Source of the DNA: Nitrosomonas sp.
GTDB taxonomy: Bacteria > Pseudomonadota > Gammaproteobacteria > Burkholderiales > Nitrosomonadaceae
Assembly: GCA_021774055.1 (NCBI GenBank)
Contig: JAJFJL010000076.1
Span: 1-44,110 of the forward strand
Direction: 5' to 3'
Length of the DNA stretch: 44,110 nt
In this document: one piece after another, positions 13,319 through 30,206 of the stretch
Layout of the letters: every line of letters begins with the position of its first letter
How positions within the stretch are numbered: position 1 is the stretch's first letter
The notes under the pieces: generated by a model
Told to the model about the DNA's origin: nothing
The model's database searches: none
The model's input: the letters and a program-made list of their open reading frames with translations, nothing else
Position numbers and translations under genes: made by a program

Positions 13319-13363
13319 TATAATCACATCCTGGCGTTCTGTTATAAGACTGAGGATTATAAT
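13319..13363 (+). promoter_or_regulatory. Two perfect -10 boxes before the structured RNA
   Basis: TATAAT occurs at 13319-13324 and again at 13358-13363. Starts about seven bases downstream would fall near 13331 and 13370; the second is right at the base of the fold described next. No good -35 partner is seen for either. Confidence 0.35.
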
Positions 13364-13366
13364 TCT

Positions 13367-13530
13367 TGCCCGTCAACGTCGCCTCGCGTAGCCCTAAACC
13401 CAGATAAGTATTGGTTTGGCAAGGAGGAACGCATGGCGTTATGACCGAGTAGTCCTTGTTAAATCAATATGTTCTGGGACTATGGGCGTAGGGAGGCGAT
13501 AATGTCGGGCATGTAACTTGCCCAGATTTT
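13367..13530 (+). ncRNA. Candidate structured RNA or leader with alternative terminator
   Basis: Nested stems run from outside in: TGCCCG (13367-13372) with CGGGCA (13506-13511); GTCGCCTC (13378-13385) with GAGGCGAT (13493-13500); GCCC (13391-13394) with GGGC (13484-13487); CCCAGA (13399-13404) with TCTGGG (13473-13478); a 17-bp helix (13409-13425 with 13453-13469) with three G-U pairs; and AACGC/GCGTT closed by ATG (13428-13440). The G-U pairs point to a plus-strand transcript. GGGCA of the outer stem (13507-13511) can instead pair with TGCCC (13519-13523), which is followed by AGATTTT. This would make two exclusive folds, as in an attenuator. The next gene begins at 13643. It matches no RNA family I can name. 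Confidence 0.6.
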
Positions 13531-13642
13531 GAGCTGAGCTCCAGGATTATGGTCAGGGTTTCCATAGAAAGTTATCATATTCCTTAAATTATTTACCCAC
13601 TCTAAATTTATAAGAGCCATTTTATCTAACAAGGAGAAAATT

Positions 13643-13951
13643 GTGAGTACGGAAGATGATTGTGAACGTGATAGACTTAATCAAATTGAAGGTCATCGGC
13701 ACTGGAAGCCCCCGGGCCGACAAGAATCATCAGATGGAGGTGCAGGAGAGGGATTACTTTTTTATCTATTGATTATAGCTGGTATTATTCAGATTATGAT
13801 TCATTATAGTGTGTCTGAGATTATCAGTTTTATTTTTTGGGCCTTTATCTATTTTTATGCGGTACTTATCTATATTTTTTATGAGTTCTTTATTGCAATT
13901 GGGTTTGTAATTTGGAATTATATAATTATTCCACTTTGGAACAATATATAA
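13643..13951 (+). CDS. Small membrane protein of unknown function
   Basis: This 102-residue protein has a charged, cytoplasmic-type N-terminus (MSTEDDCERDRLNQIEGHRHWKPPGRQESSDGGAGEG), followed by two to three closely spaced hydrophobic helices rich in Ile, Phe and Tyr up to the end (LLFYLLIIAGIIQIMIHY, then about 55-100). The GTG start at 13643 is supported by AAGGAGA six bases upstream. Its mRNA probably carries the structured element at 13367-13530 in its leader. Family unknown. Confidence 0.6.
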   Translation: MSTEDDCERDRLNQIEGHRHWKPPGRQESSDGGAGEGLLFYLLIIAGIIQIMIHYSVSEIISFIFWAFIYFYAVLIYIFYEFFIAIGFVIWNYIIIPLWNNI

Positions 13952-14121: not shown

Positions 14122-15084
14122 ATGAACAAAAAAAATAATTCACTCATTCTAGCCCCCACCAGTCTACTAACGAACGCCGATTTTTCGCGCCTAGCCGATG
14201 TGCCGCCAGAAGTTGAATGGTTCGCCAATATTAACAATTCACAAACTCGCCGTGCTTATGAAAATGCACTAAAAGATTTTATGAAATTTACTGGCATTAA
14301 TAAGCCAGAGGAATTCCGCATTGTTGCAAGATCTCATATCATCGCTTGGCGTGATGAGCTAACCAAACGCCTATTAAGTAGTATGACTATTCGCCATCGT
14401 TTGGCAGCATTATCTTCATTATTTGAATATCTTTGCGAGCGCAACACGGTAACTCATAATCCTGTCAAAGGCGTTAAACGACCAGCTATTGATAGTTATA
14501 TTGGTAAAACCCAAGCGTTAGGTGATCACCAAGCCAGAGAATTACTTGATATACCAGATAATCATTCACTCAAAGGCAAACGTGATCGGGCGATGCTGGC
14601 TACTCTGCTTTATCACGCGTTACGGCGTAATGAATTATGCTTACTGAAAGTAAAAGATTTTAAGCAAGAGCGCAGAGGCGTTCCGCATTTGAATATATCG
14701 GGCAAAGGTGGCAAAACCCGTTACCTACCATTACATCCAGCCGCTAGTATGCTGATTCATGATTATTTGCAAGAAGCAGGCCATCTTGCCGATGAAAACG
14801 GGGCGTTGTTTCGTTCTACTAGTAATAATCGGGTGAAAGGCTCACAACAAGCGATTACCCCAGATGGGGTATATAAAATGGTACGGGAATATTCGCAGAA
14901 ATTGGGGTTTAAAATCGGGGCGCATTCTCTACGGGCAACGGCTGCAACTAATGCATTAGACAATCAGGCGGATATTGCCAAAGTACAAGAATGGCTAGGA
15001 CATGCCAATATTACTACCACTAGAATGTATGATCACCGCAAAACTCGGCCAGAAGATAGCCCTACTTTTAAAGTTTCGTATTAG
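14122..15084 (+). CDS. Tyrosine recombinase / integrase (XerC/D-like)
   Basis: This 320-residue enzyme cuts and rejoins DNA through a phosphotyrosine. An N-terminal SAM-like core-binding domain (about 38-118, SQTRRAYENALKDFMKFTG) precedes the catalytic domain. Residues visible are R168 (HALRRNEL), K198 (GKGGKTR), H268 and R271 (GAHSLRATAATNAL), H294 (WLGHANI) and nucleophile Y303 (RMYDHRKT), so it looks active. It differs from integron IntI: I see no extra IntI-type insert. Its last nine codons recur as an isolated piece at 20288-20314, implying recombination that used or copied the gene's 3' end. Convergent to a small ORF ending at 15118. Confidence 0.9.
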   Translation: MNKKNNSLILAPTSLLTNADFSRLADVPPEVEWFANINNSQTRRAYENALKDFMKFTGINKPEEFRIVARSHIIAWRDELTKRLLSSMTIRHRLAALSSLFEYLCERNTVTHNPVKGVKRPAIDSYIGKTQALGDHQARELLDIPDNHSLKGKRDRAMLATLLYHALRRNELCLLKVKDFKQERRGVPHLNISGKGGKTRYLPLHPAASMLIHDYLQEAGHLADENGALFRSTSNNRVKGSQQAITPDGVYKMVREYSQKLGFKIGAHSLRATAATNALDNQADIAKVQEWLGHANITTTRMYDHRKTRPEDSPTFKVSY

Positions 15085-15819: not shown

Positions 15820-18462
15820 TTATGATTTAATCTCAATAGCAGTTTTAATCTCTGAGGCTATTTTTACAGGAGTGTAAATATCCACATCTTGCTCTGGAGT
15901 CGTAATTGAAACAATCAAAGAATAGCGTCCTATCTTATTGGATTTTCCTAAGTGTTTTCTTTCTCTCCACCAACCAATCACAGGGGAAATAGCAATGAAG
16001 TTAGAATCAGACAAGTCAGCTGCTGAGCCTTTCCATATATCAGAATGTATAGAGCCTTTATCTCTGTTGTCTGATCCAATTACCCAGTATTTTGTAGGAG
16101 ATTTTGCATCAGGCTTTCCTTCATCTTCATCTCTAGATTTTTTATTAATCCTTTTAACAAATATATCTTTATCTTCTCCAGGAGAATTTAAATCAAATCG
16201 TAAAGCGTGAGATGCATAACGATAGCGATCTTTCCAGCCAATTTCTCCTGGTCCCGGTTCTACAAAATAAGAAAGCGTTATTCGCATCTCAACATCAGAC
16301 TCCCCAAGACCTTCTAATATCTCTTTTGGCCATGGAAGTTCGTACAGGTGCATATCTTTTGTTTTCGCCCCCTCAAAGGGTTGAATTTCTGCTTCAGCAA
16401 TAAGAGTCAGACTGTTAGATGCACAGTAAATAGCTTTTTCTAAATTTGGGACGCCATATCCGCATGCTTTAAGTACATCGGTAAGTCCAGTTTTCTCGAT
16501 AAGCCCCTTATCATTAAGCTGTCCGAATTGTTCTTTTAACGCCTGAGGCCACTCAGCAGAATGAATCATTAATGCGCGAATAGTTTCTGGCCAGTAATCA
16601 GGATATTGAGCTTGTATTTGTGCTGCAAAATTAGCTGCTTGTGCTGCAGCAGCACTTGTCATATTAAACGGATACAAAGATTCTTCTTGAGGTTTGTAGT
16701 TTGTTGAAACTAATGATAAATCATTGCTTTTATCTTCAACTAAACCGCTATTATCAGTGGCGGCATTACCTCCTTCAAAAACAACTTCTGGCTTTATAGG
16801 CCATTGATTATTTTCCCAAGTTAAAGATGTTGTTGAAAATGGAGAAAGCTGCCCTTCTTTTGCAAGTATAGAATAATCCTTATATGTTGAATCTGTAATT
16901 TTTGTAAGTTCTGTAAATGCCCCTACAGTTATTGCATTCCAAGATTGTGCTGGGTCGTGTATAGAGTCGTCTTTTTGTGCCTGCGGGTAATCTATGATTT
17001 TACTAGGATTTGCATTTCCTGCTGCCAATATAAATAAGCGCTTATCTTCATTGTCTGAACCAGATGTAATTTGATCTATTGCCGCAGACCATGATGATGG
17101 CTTCCCTCTATCACGAGTATCATCAGAAGCAACGGGCATACAGGTGATTCTTTTTCTATCATCAGCTTGTATTTCTGCTCGGCTAATTGCTTGCTTTGTG
17201 ATATCTCCCCATAGTTCTACTGGATTGCCCCCAGTTGGCGGTAGGATTTTTATAGATTCTAAAATATGTCCTAAATTAACGTGATCATTGCTTTCTAACT
17301 TTGACTTCAAATCTCCATAAGCAGATAAACCAGCCATTAAAGTTCCATGACTATGATGGTCATGGCTGCCCCAATCAGGGTTGACAGCTTGGCAATCTTC
17401 ATCTGATAACACTGGCTTAAGCAGCGGATGACCGTTGTTAACGCCTGTATCTAAAATACAAACTGCCACATTTGAGCTATTATCTACTGACAAACGCCCC
17501 AATAGGTTATCCACCCATTCACTTTGTTCAGCTGGAGTTTGAGACAGTAAAAATTCTGCCGTAGTTTTAGCCCTGCGATATTCAGCTATATCATCAGAGT
17601 TTTCTGTAATTTTTCTTAGCTGATCTTTTGAGGCATAAATAAGCTTTACCAGCCTTTCTGGAAACTTAATGCAACCAGATTTACTATCTATGTTTTGTGA
17701 TTTCAATAGATCATTAAACCTAGTTTCTACATCTTCACTGTCATCACGCAACCACACTTCACACCATTCTTGTTTAGTAGAAGGCGCTAATTCTGGGCTA
17801 TCTGTCCAGAATGATTCGACACGCAAAGCCTTCCTTAATTCTTTAATTCTATTTATAAGATCTTTATGTTTAGGTTCATTTTCTATTGGAATTTTATATT
17901 CAACCGCATCACCTAAACAAGGCTCAGTTTTTTCAAGGAATATCTCTTGCTTACTTTTGGTTACATATACAATTAAATTTCCGTCTTCTTCCCTAATGCC
18001 AGATTTACCAATTTTCAATTCTTCTATGATTTTCTCAAACTCTAGAAATTTTGGAAATTTAAAATAAGCACCTTTATTTTCATTTAGATATTGTTCAATT
18101 TTATCAAAAAAGAATTTTTTCTTATCATTAGGAATATAGACTGTAATATACTTTGTATCGGAACCTTCCTCCTCTCTAACATTACACAAACGAATTCCTT
18201 GCGGTAAGCTTTCTAATTTTTCAATATCAAGGTCAGAAGAACTTTTAAATTCGATATTTACACCTTTACGCCCAGAATGAGTTACAGCTAGTTCGTTTTC
18301 ATTTTCTTTCCACGCTTCTTCTAGTTTTTTTTTGATGTACTCACCATGTGACTTTCTATCTCTTGCTGGGCAGGTGCCTCCGCCACCGCCAGAGTTAGGT
18401 GTCGTAAAACCGATGCTATCAGCAGGTTTTAATATTCGAATATGTGGTAATTCTTTTTTCAT
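15820..18462 (-). CDS. ietS: Subtilisin-like S8 protease, IetS-type defence protein
   Basis: This 880-residue protein carries a subtilase domain in its centre. The catalytic triad is intact: D338 in VAVCILDTGVN, H372 in DHHSHGTLMAGLSAYG, S603 in PFNMTSAAAAQAANF, with the oxyanion Asn at N483 (FILAAGNAN). The first ~325 residues have no signal peptide and are charged, so it acts in the cytoplasm; the last ~200 form an extra beta-rich domain. ietA lies directly upstream with a 2-base gap. Pairing of an AAA+ ATPase with a large cytoplasmic subtilase is the IetAS anti-phage arrangement, probably an abortive-infection type. What the protease cuts is not readable from sequence. Confidence 0.85.
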   Translation of the reverse strand: MKKELPHIRILKPADSIGFTTPNSGGGGGTCPARDRKSHGEYIKKKLEEAWKENENELAVTHSGRKGVNIEFKSSSDLDIEKLESLPQGIRLCNVREEEGSDTKYITVYIPNDKKKFFFDKIEQYLNENKGAYFKFPKFLEFEKIIEELKIGKSGIREEDGNLIVYVTKSKQEIFLEKTEPCLGDAVEYKIPIENEPKHKDLINRIKELRKALRVESFWTDSPELAPSTKQEWCEVWLRDDSEDVETRFNDLLKSQNIDSKSGCIKFPERLVKLIYASKDQLRKITENSDDIAEYRRAKTTAEFLLSQTPAEQSEWVDNLLGRLSVDNSSNVAVCILDTGVNNGHPLLKPVLSDEDCQAVNPDWGSHDHHSHGTLMAGLSAYGDLKSKLESNDHVNLGHILESIKILPPTGGNPVELWGDITKQAISRAEIQADDRKRITCMPVASDDTRDRGKPSSWSAAIDQITSGSDNEDKRLFILAAGNANPSKIIDYPQAQKDDSIHDPAQSWNAITVGAFTELTKITDSTYKDYSILAKEGQLSPFSTTSLTWENNQWPIKPEVVFEGGNAATDNSGLVEDKSNDLSLVSTNYKPQEESLYPFNMTSAAAAQAANFAAQIQAQYPDYWPETIRALMIHSAEWPQALKEQFGQLNDKGLIEKTGLTDVLKACGYGVPNLEKAIYCASNSLTLIAEAEIQPFEGAKTKDMHLYELPWPKEILEGLGESDVEMRITLSYFVEPGPGEIGWKDRYRYASHALRFDLNSPGEDKDIFVKRINKKSRDEDEGKPDAKSPTKYWVIGSDNRDKGSIHSDIWKGSAADLSDSNFIAISPVIGWWRERKHLGKSNKIGRYSLIVSITTPEQDVDIYTPVKIASEIKTAIEIKS

Positions 18463-18464
18463 GC

Positions 18465-19433
18465 TTAGCTCTTCATTCCTTTAATGGCATTCTGTCTGTT
18501 AGCAATCATCGCACAGAGGTCTAAAGCACTAATTTTTTTCTTGTCGGATAATATTGCATTTTTGATGGCATCGTTACAGGAAAGGGCTAATTCGGCATGA
18601 CTAAGGTCGGAGCTTTTATCGAGAACATTTTTCCAGCCAAAGCGAGTGGATTTGAAAGTTCCCAATATATTTTCTATCAGTTGCTGCTTTTCTTTGTTTG
18701 TAGGATTTTTATAATATAAAACATCATCAAAGCGTCTAAATAATGCCTTATCTAAAAGCTGAGGATTGTTGGTTGCAGCAATAACAATGCTGTCTGATAT
18801 GTCTTGCTCAATAAACTGCAAGAAAGCATTTAGCACTCGACGCATTTCGCCAACATCATTATCAGAAGACCGCTCTCCACCAATAGCATCAAATTCATCA
18901 AAGAAATAAACACCATGTTCTTCTTTCATAAAATCAAATATTTGTCTTAGCTTGGCACTGGTTTCTCCCATGAATTTAGTTACAAGACGATCCACCTGCA
19001 CCGTATGCAGTGGTATATGCAGTTCATGAGCCAGAACCTTGGCAGTCATGGTTTTACCTGTGCCAGGCGGGCCAATCAGAAGGATTTTCCTACGGTGGGA
19101 CAGTCCGTGTGATTTAAGTTTTTCCTGCTGCCTATATTCGTGGATAATTTGGTCTATTCTTGATTGCAACTCAGGATTCATTACAAGAACTTGTTTGGAT
19201 GTTCTTGGTTCTTCAGTTAAAACAAGACCTCGTAAATCTTTAGGAAAATTAAGAACTCGAGGCCCAGCTTTCTTCCGTTCCATATCAACAAGGTTGCGGA
19301 TATCGTGAGCCAAGGCAGTATGCCCACGCTTTGCCTCATGCGCAGCTACTTGCAAAGCAACCGTATAAAACCGCTCTGGCTCATTGCCAAAATGTGACCT
19401 GATCAAGGATTTTAATTGTTCTGCTGTGGCCAT
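18465..19433 (-). CDS. ietA: AAA+ ATPase, IetA-type defence protein
   Basis: This 322-residue AAA+ ATPase has an N-terminal helical region (1-60) and an ATPase core. Walker A is GPPGTGKT (121-128), Walker B VYFFDE (175-180), sensor-1 TNN (221-223), and a likely arginine finger at R233/R234 (LFRRFDD). The core resembles SpoVK/FtsH-type classic AAA modules. It is the first gene of a two-gene operon with the S8 protease and likely controls its activity, by sensing infection or feeding substrates. Confidence in the ATPase is very high. The link to IetAS comes from the gene pair and is known biology, not something tested here. Confidence 0.86.
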   Translation of the reverse strand: MATAEQLKSLIRSHFGNEPERFYTVALQVAAHEAKRGHTALAHDIRNLVDMERKKAGPRVLNFPKDLRGLVLTEEPRTSKQVLVMNPELQSRIDQIIHEYRQQEKLKSHGLSHRRKILLIGPPGTGKTMTAKVLAHELHIPLHTVQVDRLVTKFMGETSAKLRQIFDFMKEEHGVYFFDEFDAIGGERSSDNDVGEMRRVLNAFLQFIEQDISDSIVIAATNNPQLLDKALFRRFDDVLYYKNPTNKEKQQLIENILGTFKSTRFGWKNVLDKSSDLSHAELALSCNDAIKNAILSDKKKISALDLCAMIANRQNAIKGMKS

Positions 19434-23998: not shown

Positions 23999-25264
23999 TT
24001 ATCCTATTTTCCAACAACCTTCACAATACTTAGGAAACAAGCCGTTCCACAGGTTAAAACGTGTATTTTGATAATAAGGTTCATGCAAAATATCAGTTAA
24101 AGAATGATCGAATAAATTCCAAAGTGGGTCGATCGGGGTTTTAATTTGACAACAAGGTGTAACATCACCAGATAACAACGAATAAATCCACTGTTCATCA
24201 CAGTTTTTACGTATACCATTCTGGCGCCCCGATTTATCAATCTCAATCCCTTCCTTGATACAAAACTCATTAATAGATTGTAAACTGCTGGCTGCAGCGC
24301 CACTATCTTTACTAATAGCTGCCGTCACTTGATCGAGCTGACTAAGTTCAACCAGCTTATCTTTAGGATAGATAGGAGTGTAGGTGCTCATTGGATTTAA
24401 CGGCTGGAAGCTTTCAAAAATATCAACCCCATGCCGTTTGGCTTCTTCAATTATGGAAGGCAATTCGTTTTTAGTATGCGAAAAAAGTGTACCTTTAACA
24501 GCAATACGCGGATATTTGTAGCCATTTTCGTCACGATAACGACACAAACGTTCAATGCCTTGCCAAATTTTAGTTAATTCTCCGTCTATTCGTGAGCTAG
24601 CAAAAGTATCTGCATCAGCAGAATCAATAGAAACAGCTATATAAGCAATTTCCGCCGCACAAAGCTTCTTGATAACACTTTGACTAAATGCTGAGCCATT
24701 AGAAATTATCATTACTCGGACACCGTGATCTTTGGCCATATGCGCCATAGAAAAGAATCCTTTGTGTAGTAGCGGCTCACCTTCACCAACTAAAGCAATA
24801 GTTTTTACAGTCGGAAAATTATCTAATACTTTGGCGAAATTTTCGACATTAATATCTTCCTGCTTCATATGTCGACCGATGCAATACCAGCAATTAAAAT
24901 TGCAGCGTGTAGTTGGCTCAATATTAAGGAAAGTTGGCTGATCAAACCATAACTTTGCTTCGACAGCTGTAATCGGTTGCTTAGATAATTCTGGTTGCTT
25001 CAAGTGTATGTCAGACAGTTCAGTTTCTTCCAACATAAAATTGTCACAATCAGGACAATATAAAACCTTTGCCTCTTCTACCCAGTTTGTTTCACCAAAT
25101 CGTAAATGCGCACAAACATGAAATGCTGCTGCTCCACTACAAACTGAGCAGCTACGCAACTGATCAGACTGTAATGGCAAATGATCTTTAAAAGGTCTAA
25201 GGTGATCATGACATGCAGACCATATAGCTGATAAATTAATCAATTTAATATTTCCATTATTCAT
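23999..25264 (-). CDS. Radical SAM protein with zinc-ribbon N-terminus and SPASM-like tail
   Basis: This is a 421-residue enzyme. The radical SAM [4Fe-4S] motif is CNFNCWYC (C121, C125, C128), followed by GEGEPLLHKGF and the barrel strands. N-terminal CSVC and CPDC (residues 39-73) look like a zinc ribbon. The C-terminal cysteines (NCDEQW...TPCCQ...YCEGCW) fit an extra Fe-S site of SPASM type. The ATG at 25264 (MNNGNIKLINLSAIW) is preferred to 25333, since the longer version runs into repeat copy B. It probably modifies a sugar, lipid or peptide in the adjoining surface cluster. Substrate unknown. Confidence 0.85.
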   Translation of the reverse strand: MNNGNIKLINLSAIWSACHDHLRPFKDHLPLQSDQLRSCSVCSGAAAFHVCAHLRFGETNWVEEAKVLYCPDCDNFMLEETELSDIHLKQPELSKQPITAVEAKLWFDQPTFLNIEPTTRCNFNCWYCIGRHMKQEDINVENFAKVLDNFPTVKTIALVGEGEPLLHKGFFSMAHMAKDHGVRVMIISNGSAFSQSVIKKLCAAEIAYIAVSIDSADADTFASSRIDGELTKIWQGIERLCRYRDENGYKYPRIAVKGTLFSHTKNELPSIIEEAKRHGVDIFESFQPLNPMSTYTPIYPKDKLVELSQLDQVTAAISKDSGAAASSLQSINEFCIKEGIEIDKSGRQNGIRKNCDEQWIYSLLSGDVTPCCQIKTPIDPLWNLFDHSLTDILHEPYYQNTRFNLWNGLFPKYCEGCWKIG

Positions 25265-25284
25265 ATCTCTACAAAAAATTATAC

Positions 25285-25338
25285 GTAGGGTGCATTCCAT
25301 GCACCATTTATAACGCTGGTGCGTAAAACGCACTCTAC
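25285..25338. repeat. Palindromic repeat, copy B
   Basis: The arms GTAGGGTGC (25285-25293) and GCACTCTAC (25330-25338) pair with one G-U; the inner pair GCACC/GGTGC is perfect. Compared with copy A (AGC/GCT), the TGC/GCA pair has changed on both sides, which is a compensating change. It lies between the LpxL-like gene end and the radical SAM start. Confidence 0.65.
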
Positions 25339-25386: not shown

Positions 25387-26289
25387 TTATTTTTCTTTTG
25401 GTAAATCGTTGAACCAATTCCACCCATCCCAGAAATAAGGGCGCTCAACTAATAGTTCCGCAAGAAAATCGAAATAAGACTGCATCACTTTCTGATGTGC
25501 CAGGCCGTCATCTAACTGACGAAAAATAATCTTATAATTGGTTCCTTCACGGACCGCAATTCCAGCAACAATCGGTGTGCCTAAACGTTGCGCCAAACGA
25601 ACGCTGCCACTGGGTGCTAAGATGGAGCGGCCTAATAAGTGACAAACCTCATCATTAGCTGTTTTCCCAGGGGATGTAAAATCATTCAGCGAAATTAATA
25701 TAGAGTTACTGTTAAGTGACTCTTTGGTCATTTCTACTGCTTGTCTTGAGGTACTAAAAAAACGATAACTGCCACCGTTAAAATGCTTGGTACTACCTTG
25801 ATGCAAACGACGAACATATGCACCAATATAATCATAAATTACTGAGGTTTCCTCTGGTGCAGCAAGAGCATTTACACGAAATCCAGCTAAGCCAAGTAAA
25901 CTACAAAGTGTATGGTGGAAAGCATGATGATAGGTTAGAAATAAACAACCTTTTCCTGGTGATAGAATTTTTTCCAGACAAGCTGTATCTATTTCCACAT
26001 GTTGATTAAACCAGGCTTGATCCCAGGTAGCATGCTGAAACACATTTACACAGAAAGCGCCATGATCATTTACCCATTGCTGCCATAAACTATCCCAATC
26101 AATAATAGATAACTTGCTAGTTGCCATTGCATTATGGCAAGTTTCTTTTTGCCAACGTAAAGGCCCCTGTAATCTTCCTGCCGTCCCGGCAATTTGATAA
26201 GCAATCGACAACGGTAAGTGAGATACAATTGAAGATAAAAAAAGCATACGTCGATAATCGCCACCAAATGACTGTATATCTAAACTCAT
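25387..26289 (-). CDS. LpxL/HtrB-type lysophospholipid/lipid A acyltransferase family protein
   Basis: This 300-residue protein carries the LABLAT-type acyltransferase pattern: LSPGKGCLFLTYHHAFHHTLCSLLGLAGFRVNALAAPEETSVIYDYIGAYVRRLHQGSTKHFNGG, and later GRSILAPSGSVRLAQRLGTPIVAGIAVREG. The usual HX4(D/E) catalytic motif is changed (HHAFHH), so activity is uncertain or altered. It has no obvious signal or strong membrane segments. It overlaps the upstream methyltransferase-GNAT gene by four bases (ATGA), so it is translated with it. Likely acylates a surface lipid or glycan intermediate. Confidence 0.72.
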   Translation of the reverse strand: MSLDIQSFGGDYRRMLFLSSIVSHLPLSIAYQIAGTAGRLQGPLRWQKETCHNAMATSKLSIIDWDSLWQQWVNDHGAFCVNVFQHATWDQAWFNQHVEIDTACLEKILSPGKGCLFLTYHHAFHHTLCSLLGLAGFRVNALAAPEETSVIYDYIGAYVRRLHQGSTKHFNGGSYRFFSTSRQAVEMTKESLNSNSILISLNDFTSPGKTANDEVCHLLGRSILAPSGSVRLAQRLGTPIVAGIAVREGTNYKIIFRQLDDGLAHQKVMQSYFDFLAELLVERPYFWDGWNWFNDLPKEK

Positions 26290-28115
26290 AAAAAATCAGT
26301 ATCTCCATACATCAACCACCAATGACCACGAGTTGTATCAGCCAAACCTTTGGAAAGCTTCCAGTCTGATTGAGCAATTTCCACATCAGTTTCTTCTGTA
26401 CTTTCTAATGCTTTATTACTACCAGAAAAACTTTCCAGCATGCAGCCTGTTAACCACGCGGTTACTTTCATAGTAGATGACTTTTTTGCCAAATGCTGAG
26501 TCACATTGATCGCAAGCGGAATAACTGCGGGCGGGCCAACATAGTCTATCCAATCAAGACAATCATTGTTTTTCTTAACAACCACGATGAATTTTGCAGA
26601 TTTTGTTAAGCGATTACGAATAAGATAAGTTTGGTAGTTACCATCAGGTCGATCTTGGTAACGATACTTCAAATAAGAGGAATCTCGATGGGTTAAGATG
26701 AAATCATGACTATTTTGATGCATTTCTTGCCACAATTTTTCGGCTATCTGTGTCCAATTTGGTTGCTTGAATAATGGTTCAAGAGTTAGCCAGAATGGTA
26801 GTTTTGTGTTTCCAGCTAACCAGTTTCTTTTAAAGATATTCTCAACTGAAGCATATAACTTTAAGCGTTGCCCAACTCTTATATGGCGCCTATTAGGAAA
26901 CCCAAAGGCAACAAGATAAGGTTTTTCTTTACCAACATATTTCTCAAAAAAACCAGATGTTACCTGAAAGAAAGCGCCATATTTTGTCATTACTGCTCGT
27001 TCTGAAGTATGCACCATTACATCTCCAATTTGGAGTGCAGGAACGCTTTTTCCAAACATCGACAGCGTACGAATAAAGCCTGCGTAATGCGCAACTAAAT
27101 GACCTTCTCGATTCCAAACACCGAAGGCATGGCTTTTTTTAACAGCATATTTCCAATGCCACATTGGTTCACCAAGCTTTTGCTTAAAAACTTCCTGAAA
27201 AAGTGTCAACATTTCTTGAGACTGTGATGCAGGCATATCACAGGCTAGCCAGCGTGTGGATGATTTAGTTGCATGAAAACAAAGTGCCGTATAGCTATAA
27301 TTACCTATGGCATAGTTACGGTTAGCTAACTGACTGGAGGTGTTTAGTGAATTTATATGTGTGTCACTAAGCATAAATAACTGATGTAAATCGTCACGAT
27401 ACTTAGTGATTGCGGTTAATAAAAAATTTAACGTTAATTGTGCACAGGAGGATAAATTATGTTCCTTGGCAAGATCAAAACAATGTTTAGATGCTTCCAG
27501 CTTCAACTTATCAAGAGAATATAGTTTACTATCGACTTCAGATTTATTTTGCGTGGCTTTACCAAGAACAGTTTTTAAATCATTAAGAGAGTGCACTTGA
27601 TAGTCATCTTCAGATTTATCAGAGGTGGTTTTAGCCAGAATAATTAGTCTCCCGCCAGGACGTAGCAAAATTGCTGCACGTGAGAATAGCTGAGTAAGTG
27701 GAATATGCTGGATATTTTCTTGTAACAAGATGCAATCAAATGCTCTAGGCGTCAGCTCAAAGTCTTCATAGCCTGTCATAGAGACAGGAAACTCGCTCCC
27801 ATATTGCTTGCGAGTATAGGTAGCCGATGCCTTATCCTGAGTTACGCCAAACACATCATAACCACGTTCAAGTAGCGCAGTAATCGTTGTACCAATATCG
27901 GCGCCAACTTTTAGAATCCGTGCCGGAGGTGGTGGTAACCAAGTAAGTAACTCTTTAGTTGATTGTTCCTGGGTAATAACAATCGGTTCAGATAAATTAT
28001 CAAACCAAGCGTGATGTTGATGACACAATTTTTCAGTGGTCATCGACAACAGGTATGTATAAACATTAAGCGGGAAAGAGAGATCGGTAACAACAGGTTT
28101 GTTTTGTACTACCAT
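26286..28115 (-). CDS. SAM methyltransferase fused to GNAT-type acyltransferase domain
   Basis: This 609-residue fusion has a class I SAM-dependent methyltransferase domain in its N-terminal part: motif I is ILKVGADIGTTITALLERGYDVFGV (about 67-91), motif II-like PRAFDCILLQENIQHI, and LLRPGGRLIILAK (about 148-160). The middle and C-terminal part (about 285-480) looks like a GNAT acetyltransferase: GVWNREGHLVAHYAGFIRTLSMFGKSVPALQIGDVMVHTSERAVMTKYGAFFQVTSGFFEKYV. It may methylate and acylate a sugar or its lipid carrier. It follows the ABC ATPase by five bases, in the same minus-strand operon. The exact substrate cannot be told. Confidence 0.72.
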   Translation of the reverse strand: MVVQNKPVVTDLSFPLNVYTYLLSMTTEKLCHQHHAWFDNLSEPIVITQEQSTKELLTWLPPPPARILKVGADIGTTITALLERGYDVFGVTQDKASATYTRKQYGSEFPVSMTGYEDFELTPRAFDCILLQENIQHIPLTQLFSRAAILLRPGGRLIILAKTTSDKSEDDYQVHSLNDLKTVLGKATQNKSEVDSKLYSLDKLKLEASKHCFDLAKEHNLSSCAQLTLNFLLTAITKYRDDLHQLFMLSDTHINSLNTSSQLANRNYAIGNYSYTALCFHATKSSTRWLACDMPASQSQEMLTLFQEVFKQKLGEPMWHWKYAVKKSHAFGVWNREGHLVAHYAGFIRTLSMFGKSVPALQIGDVMVHTSERAVMTKYGAFFQVTSGFFEKYVGKEKPYLVAFGFPNRRHIRVGQRLKLYASVENIFKRNWLAGNTKLPFWLTLEPLFKQPNWTQIAEKLWQEMHQNSHDFILTHRDSSYLKYRYQDRPDGNYQTYLIRNRLTKSAKFIVVVKKNNDCLDWIDYVGPPAVIPLAINVTQHLAKKSSTMKVTAWLTGCMLESFSGSNKALESTEETDVEIAQSDWKLSKGLADTTRGHWWLMYGDTDFL

Positions 28116-28120
28116 GTCAC

Positions 28121-29386
28121 CTATTCCTGGATAGTCAAGGCATCACGCCATACATGAGGCAAAACAACCACCCCTTGCTCAAGACCACACTGTTCAACAA
28201 CCAGCTCAGCACAGCGTTCAGCGTAATCATAAACATGAACCATACGTTCACAAGTAAGAAACACACTGATTGTATAGTCACCTTTTAACAACGGGATGCT
28301 GGGATATATAACTTCTCCGAATCCTCGTCCATCAGATTCTCGGTGTAATATAACCTTGTCGTAAAATGAGCCAGCACTGGTTACAGCGTGTCCTGACTTT
28401 GTGTGAATACCAATCGCAATAGTAGGTATTGGCAAACTGTGATCAGAAGAAAAATCAACCCGAATAACAACATCAGTTTCCTTAGAGCGCACTGCTAACA
28501 GTTGCCCAGACTCTCCATTAGCGCTAACTTTGACTTTATCAATTCGAGCAGCACTTGGGGTGGCTGAGGCTGTAGTTGAGGCTGTTGCTGTTTTTTTGTC
28601 ATTAGCACGCTGCGAATGTTCTTTGGTTGTCGCTAGACGCATTAATTCAGTGTTATATTCTGTAGCAACACGTGCAGGAGTATCAAACAACATCATGCGC
28701 CCTTGATCTAGCCATATTGCTTGGGAACAAATCGCTTCAATTTGGTATAACGAATGCGAACAAAATAAGATGGTTTTTCCTGCGTCTTTTAATGCCATAA
28801 TTTGATCAAAAGATTTGCGAGCAAATTCACCGTCACCCACTGACAAAGCCTCATCAATAACTAAAATATCAGGATCAACGTTAATTGCTACAGAAAAAGC
28901 TAAGCGTACATACATCCCACTAGAATAAGTTTTAACTGGTTGATCAATAAAATTGCTGATACCAGAAAATTCAATAATCGCGTCAATACGTGTAGCAATC
29001 TCAGATTGAGTAAGCCCCATAATCGCAGCACTCATCAAAACATTTTCACGCCCAGTAAATTCAGGATTAAAACCAGCTCCTAATTCTAACAAAGCTGCAA
29101 TCCGTCCATTTACTTGCACTTGGCCGCTAGTTGGTGTCAAAGTGCCGCACACCAATTGTAATAAGGTTGATTTTCCTGAACCGTTACGTCCGACAATGCC
29201 GACAACTTCACCAGGCTGCACGGTAAAGTTAACTGCGTGTAAAGCCCATAATTCACGGTAATATTGACGTTTGCCACGCCAGATAAATTGTTTTAAGCGA
29301 TCAATTGGCTGTTTATAAAGCTCGTAGCATTTGGATAAATTGTTGACTTCAATCGCAGCTGTATTAGAAGCTAACCTAAAGGACAT
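28121..29386 (-). CDS. wzt: ABC exporter ATPase with Wzt-type C-terminal domain
   Basis: The protein has 421 residues. The ATPase half has Walker A GRNGSGKS, the Q-loop region ELGAGFNPEFTGRENV, signature YSSGMYVRL and Walker B DILVIDEAL. The last ~150 residues are a beta-sandwich-like, sugar-recognising Wzt-type domain that checks the finished glycan end. The ATG at 29386 has AAAGGA before it and overlaps the permease gene by 11 bases. It powers export of an O-antigen-like or capsular polysaccharide. Confidence 0.88.
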   Translation of the reverse strand: MSFRLASNTAAIEVNNLSKCYELYKQPIDRLKQFIWRGKRQYYRELWALHAVNFTVQPGEVVGIVGRNGSGKSTLLQLVCGTLTPTSGQVQVNGRIAALLELGAGFNPEFTGRENVLMSAAIMGLTQSEIATRIDAIIEFSGISNFIDQPVKTYSSGMYVRLAFSVAINVDPDILVIDEALSVGDGEFARKSFDQIMALKDAGKTILFCSHSLYQIEAICSQAIWLDQGRMMLFDTPARVATEYNTELMRLATTKEHSQRANDKKTATASTTASATPSAARIDKVKVSANGESGQLLAVRSKETDVVIRVDFSSDHSLPIPTIAIGIHTKSGHAVTSAGSFYDKVILHRESDGRGFGEVIYPSIPLLKGDYTISVFLTCERMVHVYDYAERCAELVVEQCGLEQGVVVLPHVWRDALTIQE

Positions 29387-30206
29387 CAGCAAATCCTTTG
29401 CGTGTTTTCATGAACCACAACATACCAGCCCAGGCAATTAGCAACGCAACAACATAATAAATTAACAAACCATACCAATTCGGCGACATACCATGCAAAA
29501 TCACCATTCTAGCTTGTTCAATAATAAAGGTTAGTGGGTTAAGAAATAAATAACTACGAATTTCTTCCGGCAAAGCAGATGCTGGGTAAAATATTGGACT
29601 CATAAACAACAACATGGTTAAAACTAAACCAATAAACTGACCGATATCACGTACAAACACACCGATTGAGGCCAGCAGCCAAGAAAATCCCATAATTAAG
29701 AATAATAATGGCAAAATCACGATTGGTAACCACAGTAATGTAAGGTAAATAGGTTGTCCGATAATAACTAAAAATATCAATAAAACCAAAATACTAATGC
29801 CTGCATGAAACAAGGCGGAACCTAAAATTACCCAAGGTAAAATCTCAAGTGGAAAAATTATTTTTTTAACATAGTTAATATTAGCTACAACTAATCCTGG
29901 GGCGCGTGATAAACAATCAGAAAACAAGTTAAATACAATTAATCCAGCAAAAAGCAGCAAAGCAAATTCAAATTTATTATCACTGTTATAACTATTTTCT
30001 AGGCGAACTTTAAAAACCACGCTAAAAACAAAAGTATAGATTGCTAGCATTATAATAGGGGTAATAAAAGACCAGATTAATCCTAAAAATGAGCCACGAT
30101 AACGACCAATTACTTCACGTTTGATCATTTGTAATACCAAAGGGCGGTGTCGCCACAGACTCAGAAAAATCTCAGAAAATGCAAGTTGAAAATAACGTAG
30201 GGACAA
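29376..30206 (-). CDS. wzm: ABC-2 type polysaccharide export permease
   Basis: This 276-residue inner-membrane protein has about six transmembrane helices. It has the typical start of this family (QMIKREVIGRYRGSFLGLIWSFITPIIMLAIYTFVFSVVF) and tail (YGLLIYYVVALLIAWAGMLWFMKTRKGFADVL). It pairs with the ATPase encoded next. The only start available is TTG at 30206 with no clear ribosome site, and it lies in TAGGGACAAG, similar to the edge of the palindromic repeats. The start may therefore have been altered by an insertion. It is probably the first gene of the minus-strand cluster. Confidence 0.85.
   Translation of the reverse strand: MSLRYFQLAFSEIFLSLWRHRPLVLQMIKREVIGRYRGSFLGLIWSFITPIIMLAIYTFVFSVVFKVRLENSYNSDNKFEFALLLFAGLIVFNLFSDCLSRAPGLVVANINYVKKIIFPLEILPWVILGSALFHAGISILVLLIFLVIIGQPIYLTLLWLPIVILPLLFLIMGFSWLLASIGVFVRDIGQFIGLVLTMLLFMSPIFYPASALPEEIRSYLFLNPLTFIIEQARMVILHGMSPNWYGLLIYYVVALLIAWAGMLWFMKTRKGFADVL

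Follow-up and report, generated by a model that had tools for sequence, protein, structure and literature searches.

The DNA analysed here, called the window throughout, is a 44,110-nt stretch from Nitrosomonas sp., and the element of interest in it is a long plus-strand hairpin whose parts and nearest neighbours are listed in Table 1. Further to the right, a tyrosine recombinase, of a type that plasmids often carry, is encoded on the plus strand (14122-15084), its closest relative among the matches listed being 79.9% identical and lying on a plasmid of Nitrosomonas sp. sh817. Several minus-strand genes follow: a subtilase and AAA ATPase pair (15820-19430), which matches the PADLOC models IetS and IetA (E 1e-42 and 9.6e-77) and is likely an Ietas defence system close to the integrase; a 443-aa protein (23999-25330) that prokaryotic viperin models match over part of their length or its own (E 6e-21); and two proteins (26286-29389) matching the PADLOC models mad2 (E 5e-8) and mad3 (E 1e-19).

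Table 1. The hairpin and its neighbours in the window (L numbers denote loci carrying related copies)
Feature	Positions	Strand	Basis or remark
TATAAT, proposed earlier as a start signal	13358..13363	+	not kept in L067 and L058
Whole long hairpin	13367..13511	+	basal stem 13367-13372 with 13506-13511; RNA and DNA folding
Upper helix, 18 bp, cap inside	13408..13470	+	13408-13425 with 13453-13470; covariation of the arms across 32 relatives
Conserved cap, 5' strand GGAGGAACGCA	13423..13433	+	alignment A1
Conserved cap, 3' strand CGAGTAGTCC	13446..13455	+	alignment A1
-35-like hexamer TTGTTA, paired, 3' arm	13456..13461	+	spacing count and fold
-10-like hexamer GACTAT, weak, 16 nt after the -35	13478..13483	+	second base A 13479 unpaired, internal loop
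Alternative hairpin GGGCA (13507-13511)/TGCCC (13519-13523)	13507..13523	+	also present in L067 and L058
Terminal inverted repeat, ISL3-type, right end	13592..13618	-	like the L067 ends
Small ORF, 102 aa, without Pfam match	13643..13951	+	neighbour of the hairpin

Folded as RNA, the plus strand from 13360 to 13535 reaches -78.0 kcal/mol, where shuffled sequences average -49.3 (sd 4.2; z -6.86), and folded as DNA it reaches -37.1 against -20.0 (z -5.98), with none of 200 shuffles equally good under either set of parameters; the minus strand of the hairpin region, as DNA, gives a z of -4.77. An earlier, sequence-only reading had proposed a long plus-strand hairpin here, and both folds return it as a single long structure, with the named letters at the positions given (Table 1; AGATTTT at 13524-13530). 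The six nested stems of that reading are the same helices that the folds divide into eight (RNA) or nine (DNA), each with one isolated pair besides, the small ones having been merged in the earlier count; likewise, its 17-bp helix with three G-U pairs is the 18-bp upper helix, in which we count four G-U pairs from the letters, the lowest one having been omitted. The pairing of GGGCA with TGCCC, put forward as a second, exclusive fold, can form, at a cost of 5.7 (RNA) or 3.1 (DNA) kcal/mol relative to the best fold. By eye, such a competing 3' hairpin is seen in three copies only, those of the window, L067 and L058, and is absent from four related plasmid-type copies (L042, L073, L080 and L152). 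The window hairpin itself is real and far beyond chance, since its core recurs in dozens of loci of varied contexts with compensating changes in the arms.

The relatives share a signature, a cap CAAGGAGGAACGCA...CGAGTAGTCCTTG on long arms that are variable yet paired. Searched by blastn, plasmids and phages gave no match to the window stretch. Another genome of the same genus shares the apical core at two places, the first of which refolds around the core and the second only when folded with short flanks. A pattern search (AGGAGGAACG..GAGTAGTCCT) over 84,980 species genomes returned 48 stretches, and 42 were kept by eye, with the core in a hairpin, a run-off at the contig end (several loci) or one cut arm (L076); the remaining six (L045, L050, L064, L071, L084 and L085) showed no fold around the core and were dropped. 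The same scan of viral sequences gave 22 loci, of which L025 and L026 were kept and 20 dropped as not folding around the core. A 42-base composite of the core had five matches among plasmids, two of them kept (H47 and H48), while H49 and H51 proved on inspection to be without the cap; its four phage matches, 17 nt at E 8, were dropped.

Alignment A1 holds 32 of 37 stretches, the omitted ones being three chance matches (L018, L019 and L037), a near copy of L042 (L044) and the cut-arm locus L076. Across A1, 81.5% of cells pair, both sides change somewhere in 22 of 28 pairs, and covariation scores 0.508, compared with 0.167 (sd 0.015) for shuffled and at most 0.167 for slid alignments; compensatory changes in relatives, which the sequence-only reading had named as a check on its fold, are thus abundant. 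The invariance of the cap is partly artificial, since the search pattern demanded those letters, and the covariance-model hits L113, L175 and L183 vary it. Even the cap stem carries compensated changes (AATGA/TCATT in L175, TAGGA/TCCTA in L113). G-T pairs exceed A-C pairs by 68 to 16 in the modelled helices, which points to the plus strand as the folded one.

The covariance model R1, built from these 32 sequences, had hits in 3 of 398 genomes from the window's phylum; for three orders the figures are 3 of 210, 14 of 301 and 11 of 390, and for a second phylum 2 of 348. These counts include genomes already known as carriers. Among 18 known carriers, 14 had one R1 match and a fifteenth (G085) had one place matched on both strands. 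Carriers, by record title, include Nitrosomonas, Methylococcaceae, Thiothrix, Orenia, Halonatronum and a Planctomycetota bin. The family is wide but sparse, found in several phyla including Bacillota, and rare and scattered in the manner of mobile DNA.

At gathering score, Rfam gave no match to the window and, for 20 loci, nothing relevant, only two tRNAs and part of a group II intron; at E up to 10, two core regions again gave nothing relevant, and a search of the literature available to us for the motif or its letters found no description. The earlier reading had called the structure undescribed, and we agree: the hairpin is conserved, strongly structured and without an Rfam match, and should it turn out to be an RNA, it would still be a conserved structured element of mobile DNA missing from Rfam. 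Three loci of one genome (L170, L173 and L174) keep a stem GTCAAGGAGGA/TCCTTGATA without the GAACG/GAGTAG cap, and are either a divergent branch or another element. Four Cysteiniphilum contigs (L046, L047, L057 and L065) break at the hairpin core, and the two of them that were compared share about 80 nt upstream beginning GGGAGTGTTCATAAAACTGTGTCA, which we take to resemble an IS256-type end.

Copies were found on plasmids, integrative and conjugative elements (ICEs), IS110-type elements, phages and an inovirus-like contig. Next to L041 is an IS110-type transposase (PF02371/PF01548), with the hairpin 3' of the transposase gene and on the opposite strand; this group has ten members, defined by common flanks, and transposase frames were clustered in six of them. 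The ICE-type copies include one cluster of 11 loci in which the integrase frame is convergent to the hairpin, with ICE-type tyrosine integrases (PF12834/PF12835) at L053 and L061 and PF12835 again at L176. Plasmid-type neighbours comprise RadC (L073 and plasmid pTHIMO01), an ArdC N-terminal domain (L080 and a Thiothrix plasmid), a RepB-type primase (L087), ParB (L072) and ParA/ParB elsewhere, and phage copies lie with portal families (L025, L049) or a terminase (L066). The inovirus-like contig, L026, carries Zot and replication-initiation families, and its replication ORF begins 137 nt after the core. The right flanks of the IS110, ICE, ICE2, inovirus and L175 copies are mutually similar, so that a 3' part of the element is common to otherwise unlike mobile elements. 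To the right of the L158 hairpin, a 338-aa minus-strand frame (L158:1889-2902) has by eye the look of a Y1/REP-type transposase, and it was not retained as one, having no Pfam match.

One copy has moved as part of an ISL3-type element. In L067, a sister of the window copy, the hairpin sits inside a 323-bp insertion with ISL3-type ends GGCTCTT...AAGAGCC, 127 nt to the left and 162 nt to the right of the core, and an 8-bp target duplication AAAATTAT; a 95%-identical stretch of the same genome lacks the insertion and represents the empty site, and the inspected alignments of relatives L141 and L142 lack it too. The window retains a right end of this type, for which we found no matching left end. 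A similar end (26 nt, 92%, E 4) adjoins an annotated ISL3 transposase of the ISAtc2 family in Acidithiobacillus caldus. By its ends, duplication, size and empty site, L067 resembles an ISL3-family MITE; the family differs from such an element in that only L067, among the loci scanned for flanking inverted repeats, has such ends around the hairpin, and outside L067 the hairpin is cargo of other elements.

What the hairpin might do is suggested by letters on its 3' arm. TAnnnT lies exactly 16 nt after TTGnnn, a -35-like element, in 6.6 of 16 context groups, whereas none of 17 other offsets exceeds 1.2, and the mean -10 log-odds is -0.50 at offset 16, against -2.99 to -5.49 elsewhere. This count covers 35 sequences in groups drawn from neighbours and flanks, each group contributing the fraction of its members that fit. 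Examples of the -10 are TATAAT (L025), TAAAAT (L066), TAGAAT (L049) and TAGAGT (L072), together with TACCCT in six of ten IS110 members and TAGCCT in the later model hit L183. No member of the ICE, ICE2, Thiothrix, inovirus, L058, L112, L113, radC or ISL3 groups has a strict TAnnnT at this offset, the radC and ISL3 groups having only a weak nAnnAT, and the -10 at 16 nt is missing from four of ten IS110 members and from L175. A -35/-10 pair rebuilt on the stem is clear in about half of the context groups and absent in several. Only the -10 half is independent evidence, since the TTG belongs to the conserved cap stem.

The geometry at position -11, where flipping of the A by sigma is a key step in promoter opening, gives a second count. 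An unpaired A directly after a paired base is found there in 8 of 18 groups, namely ISL3 (represented by the window), radC, Gilvimarinus, L086, L072, L078, the Bacillota phages and L066, and in at most one group at each of 34 other offsets, with one representative per group and the same result under DNA and RNA parameters; both this rule and the 16-nt rule had been spotted by eye before they were counted. Some groups share flank sequence (ISL3 with L058; Gilvimarinus with L086; IS110 with ICE, ICE2, inovirus and L175), and the similarity of ISL3, L058, radC and Thiothrix extends along the outer arms; after groups with similar flanks were merged, the -11 rule held in 7 of 12. The window copy reads TTGTTA-16-GACTAT with the A unpaired, both hexamers being weak, and in L067 the -11 A is paired with probability 0.6.

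Apical loops bear on whether the folded molecule is DNA. GNA and GNNA loops closed by at least two G-C pairs are described, in the part of the source that concerns them, as extraordinarily stable DNA mini-hairpins (PMC4686876). GNA loops on at least two G-C pairs occur in L056 (GC[GCA]GC), L112 (GC[GTA]GC) and L185 (GGC[GCA]GCC), and a GNNA loop, GGC[GTTA]GCC, in several ICE loci; no GNRA or UNCG-type tetraloop appears among the listed apical loops. The evidence is mixed, as GGAAC and A[GNA]T caps are closed by a single pair, the L086 loop is AAG by script and GC[GAA]GC by manual reading, and the other triloops are TTA, AAC, TAT and ATA. Several loop caps with a single closing pair, together with the common flanks of several groups, make a promoter slightly less likely and an RNA slightly more so.

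Taken together, these observations lead us to think it slightly likelier right than wrong that the hairpin family is a predicted single-stranded-DNA promoter like Frpo of the F plasmid. Once folded, the 3' arm and its partner would make a short double-stranded promoter, in which the -35-like TTGnnn just under the conserved cap and the -10-like TAnnnT would be separated by a 16-nt spacer and the -11 A of TAnnnT would already be out of the helix. Host RNA polymerase would then bind the stem and run from cap to base, copying the 5' flank of the folded strand itself; since the 5' arm and flank serve as template on such a hairpin, transcription would be leftward. Its purpose might be to express genes of incoming single-stranded DNA before the second strand is made, or to prime that strand. 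We know of no obvious single-stranded stage for double-stranded DNA phages and IS110 elements, and the F plasmid region, taken as a yardstick, showed no single clear site by the promoter rule used.

The leftward direction can be compared with the genes around the copies. On the conjugative plasmid pTHIMO01, every gene leftward from radC (39.8 kb) to 31.7 kb, those for ParA, ParB and TOPRIM included, lies on the minus strand, which is what transfer of the plus strand would predict; beyond that, in the direction of mobC (23 kb), both strands carry genes. The radC, ArdC and ICE groups fit a leftward gene, and L073 has a 78-aa plus frame between hairpin and RadC. Over the contexts compared (IS110 excluded), the nearest gene to the left is on the minus strand in nine cases, on the plus strand in seven and absent in three, giving no overall bias. 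The window copy may do nothing, since its left gene is on the plus strand; with an ISL3-type end, no leftward gene and a weak -10, it looks displaced and may be inactive.

A somewhat unlikely alternative is that the hairpin is a new structured non-coding RNA of mobile elements, whose internal-loop cap binds a common host protein, and that the likeness to a promoter is chance. The strong covariation, the G-U pairs on one strand and the stable RNA fold would all suit such an RNA, as would the invariant cap with its GAA/AGUA strands, which presumably resemble a bulged-G motif, and the CTTG loops of many IS110 copies, CTTG loops being stable in RNA too. Against it, no conserved promoter is apparent upstream: TATAAT, which the sequence-only reading took for a start signal, is missing from L067 and L058, and no T-run follows the competing hairpin in L067 (AGATTCTG) or L058 (GGATTCTG), so a terminator is not kept either. 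Nor would an RNA explain TAnnnT at one fixed offset and the unpaired -11 A, and it is this -10-like hexamer with its unpaired A that favours a promoter on the folded strand over RNA. The same losses weigh on the attenuator or riboswitch of a downstream small membrane-protein gene that the earlier reading proposed, which the competing pairings in three copies and a ribosome-site-like AAGGAG ahead of the gene had made attractive and which we now consider very improbable. No relative of the small-ORF protein turned up in the genome contigs scanned, although the hairpin core is in 42 of 48 pattern loci there, and the ISL3-type end lies between hairpin and gene, so that their adjacency may be an accident of insertion; the ORF is probably not part of the hairpin element.

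We also weighed whether the DNA hairpin could be a substrate or target of a recombinase or transposase, like integron attC sites or REP sequences, which would explain its place beside IS110 transposases and tyrosine integrases. These genes (IS110 transposase in L041, tyrosine integrase in L053 and L061) stand to the right of the hairpin and convergent with it, their frames ending 157-166 nt from the core, PF12835 recurs in L176, and one copy lies within an ISL3-type element. The recombinases belong to unrelated families, however, none was seen near the radC and ArdC plasmid copies, and the L067 insertion ends at the ISL3-type ends and not at the hairpin, all of which makes this role improbable. 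Integron attC sites, retrons and bridge RNA were considered as identities and set aside; no reverse transcriptase is among the 10 window proteins scanned, and the relatives' folded strand is opposite to the IS110 genes.

The single-stranded-DNA promoter reading has precedents. Masai and Arai reportedly described in 1997 the Frpo/ssi single-stranded DNA promoters of F and ColIb-P9. Frpo, in the portions of two accounts that deal with it, is said to be a long hairpin of single-stranded DNA that rebuilds -35 and -10 elements on its stem (PMC9849209, PMC11541004). The present family is alike, as far as those portions describe Frpo, in its long hairpin with -35/-10-like letters on the stem and in the plasmid establishment and anti-restriction genes nearby, and differs from Frpo in its strict cap sequence, 16-nt spacer and unpaired -11 A, and in being carried as well by ICEs, IS elements and phages and by Bacillota. 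Similarity to Frpo in sequence was not found: the 42-base core composite had no match in 20,395 E. coli records, and no F-like plasmid was among its five plasmid matches, F itself being in the collection. At the minus-strand origin of the filamentous phage M13, RNA polymerase starts on a hairpin of single-stranded DNA, as the relevant passages state (PMC7430646, PMC7948647), and M13ori is said in one of them to need neither -10 nor -35 (PMC7430646). One member of the hairpin family similarly precedes the replication gene of the inovirus-like contig, and the family differs from the M13 origin in that some of its members show a -10-like element, always at one position. With the seekRNA or bridge RNA of IS110/IS1111 elements the hairpin shares a structured non-coding part beside an IS110 transposase, whereas its folded strand is opposite to the transposase and its cap occurs where no IS110 gene is seen.

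More tentatively, and with a confidence a little short of even, we propose a strict-cap family of single-stranded-DNA promoters that occurs in several phyla and is itself moved about by transposons, ICEs, plasmids, phages and inoviruses; in it the -10 would be pre-opened, allowing a single strand that enters a cell or is being replicated to be read ahead of its conversion to double-stranded DNA, and the cap would be a new recognition part, not seen in Frpo, that directs polymerase or a helper to the hairpin. Promoters of the Frpo type account for the expression of protective genes by newly arrived F-like plasmids. A large survey looked for Frpo, according to the part of it that bears on this, by similarity to known Frpo or to the -35/-10 consensus (PMC11541004). 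If the reading is true, a family unrelated in sequence and with a strict signature would provide a simple search key for early-expression sites on mobile elements, and the use of a single-stranded stage by IS elements and phages would become testable.
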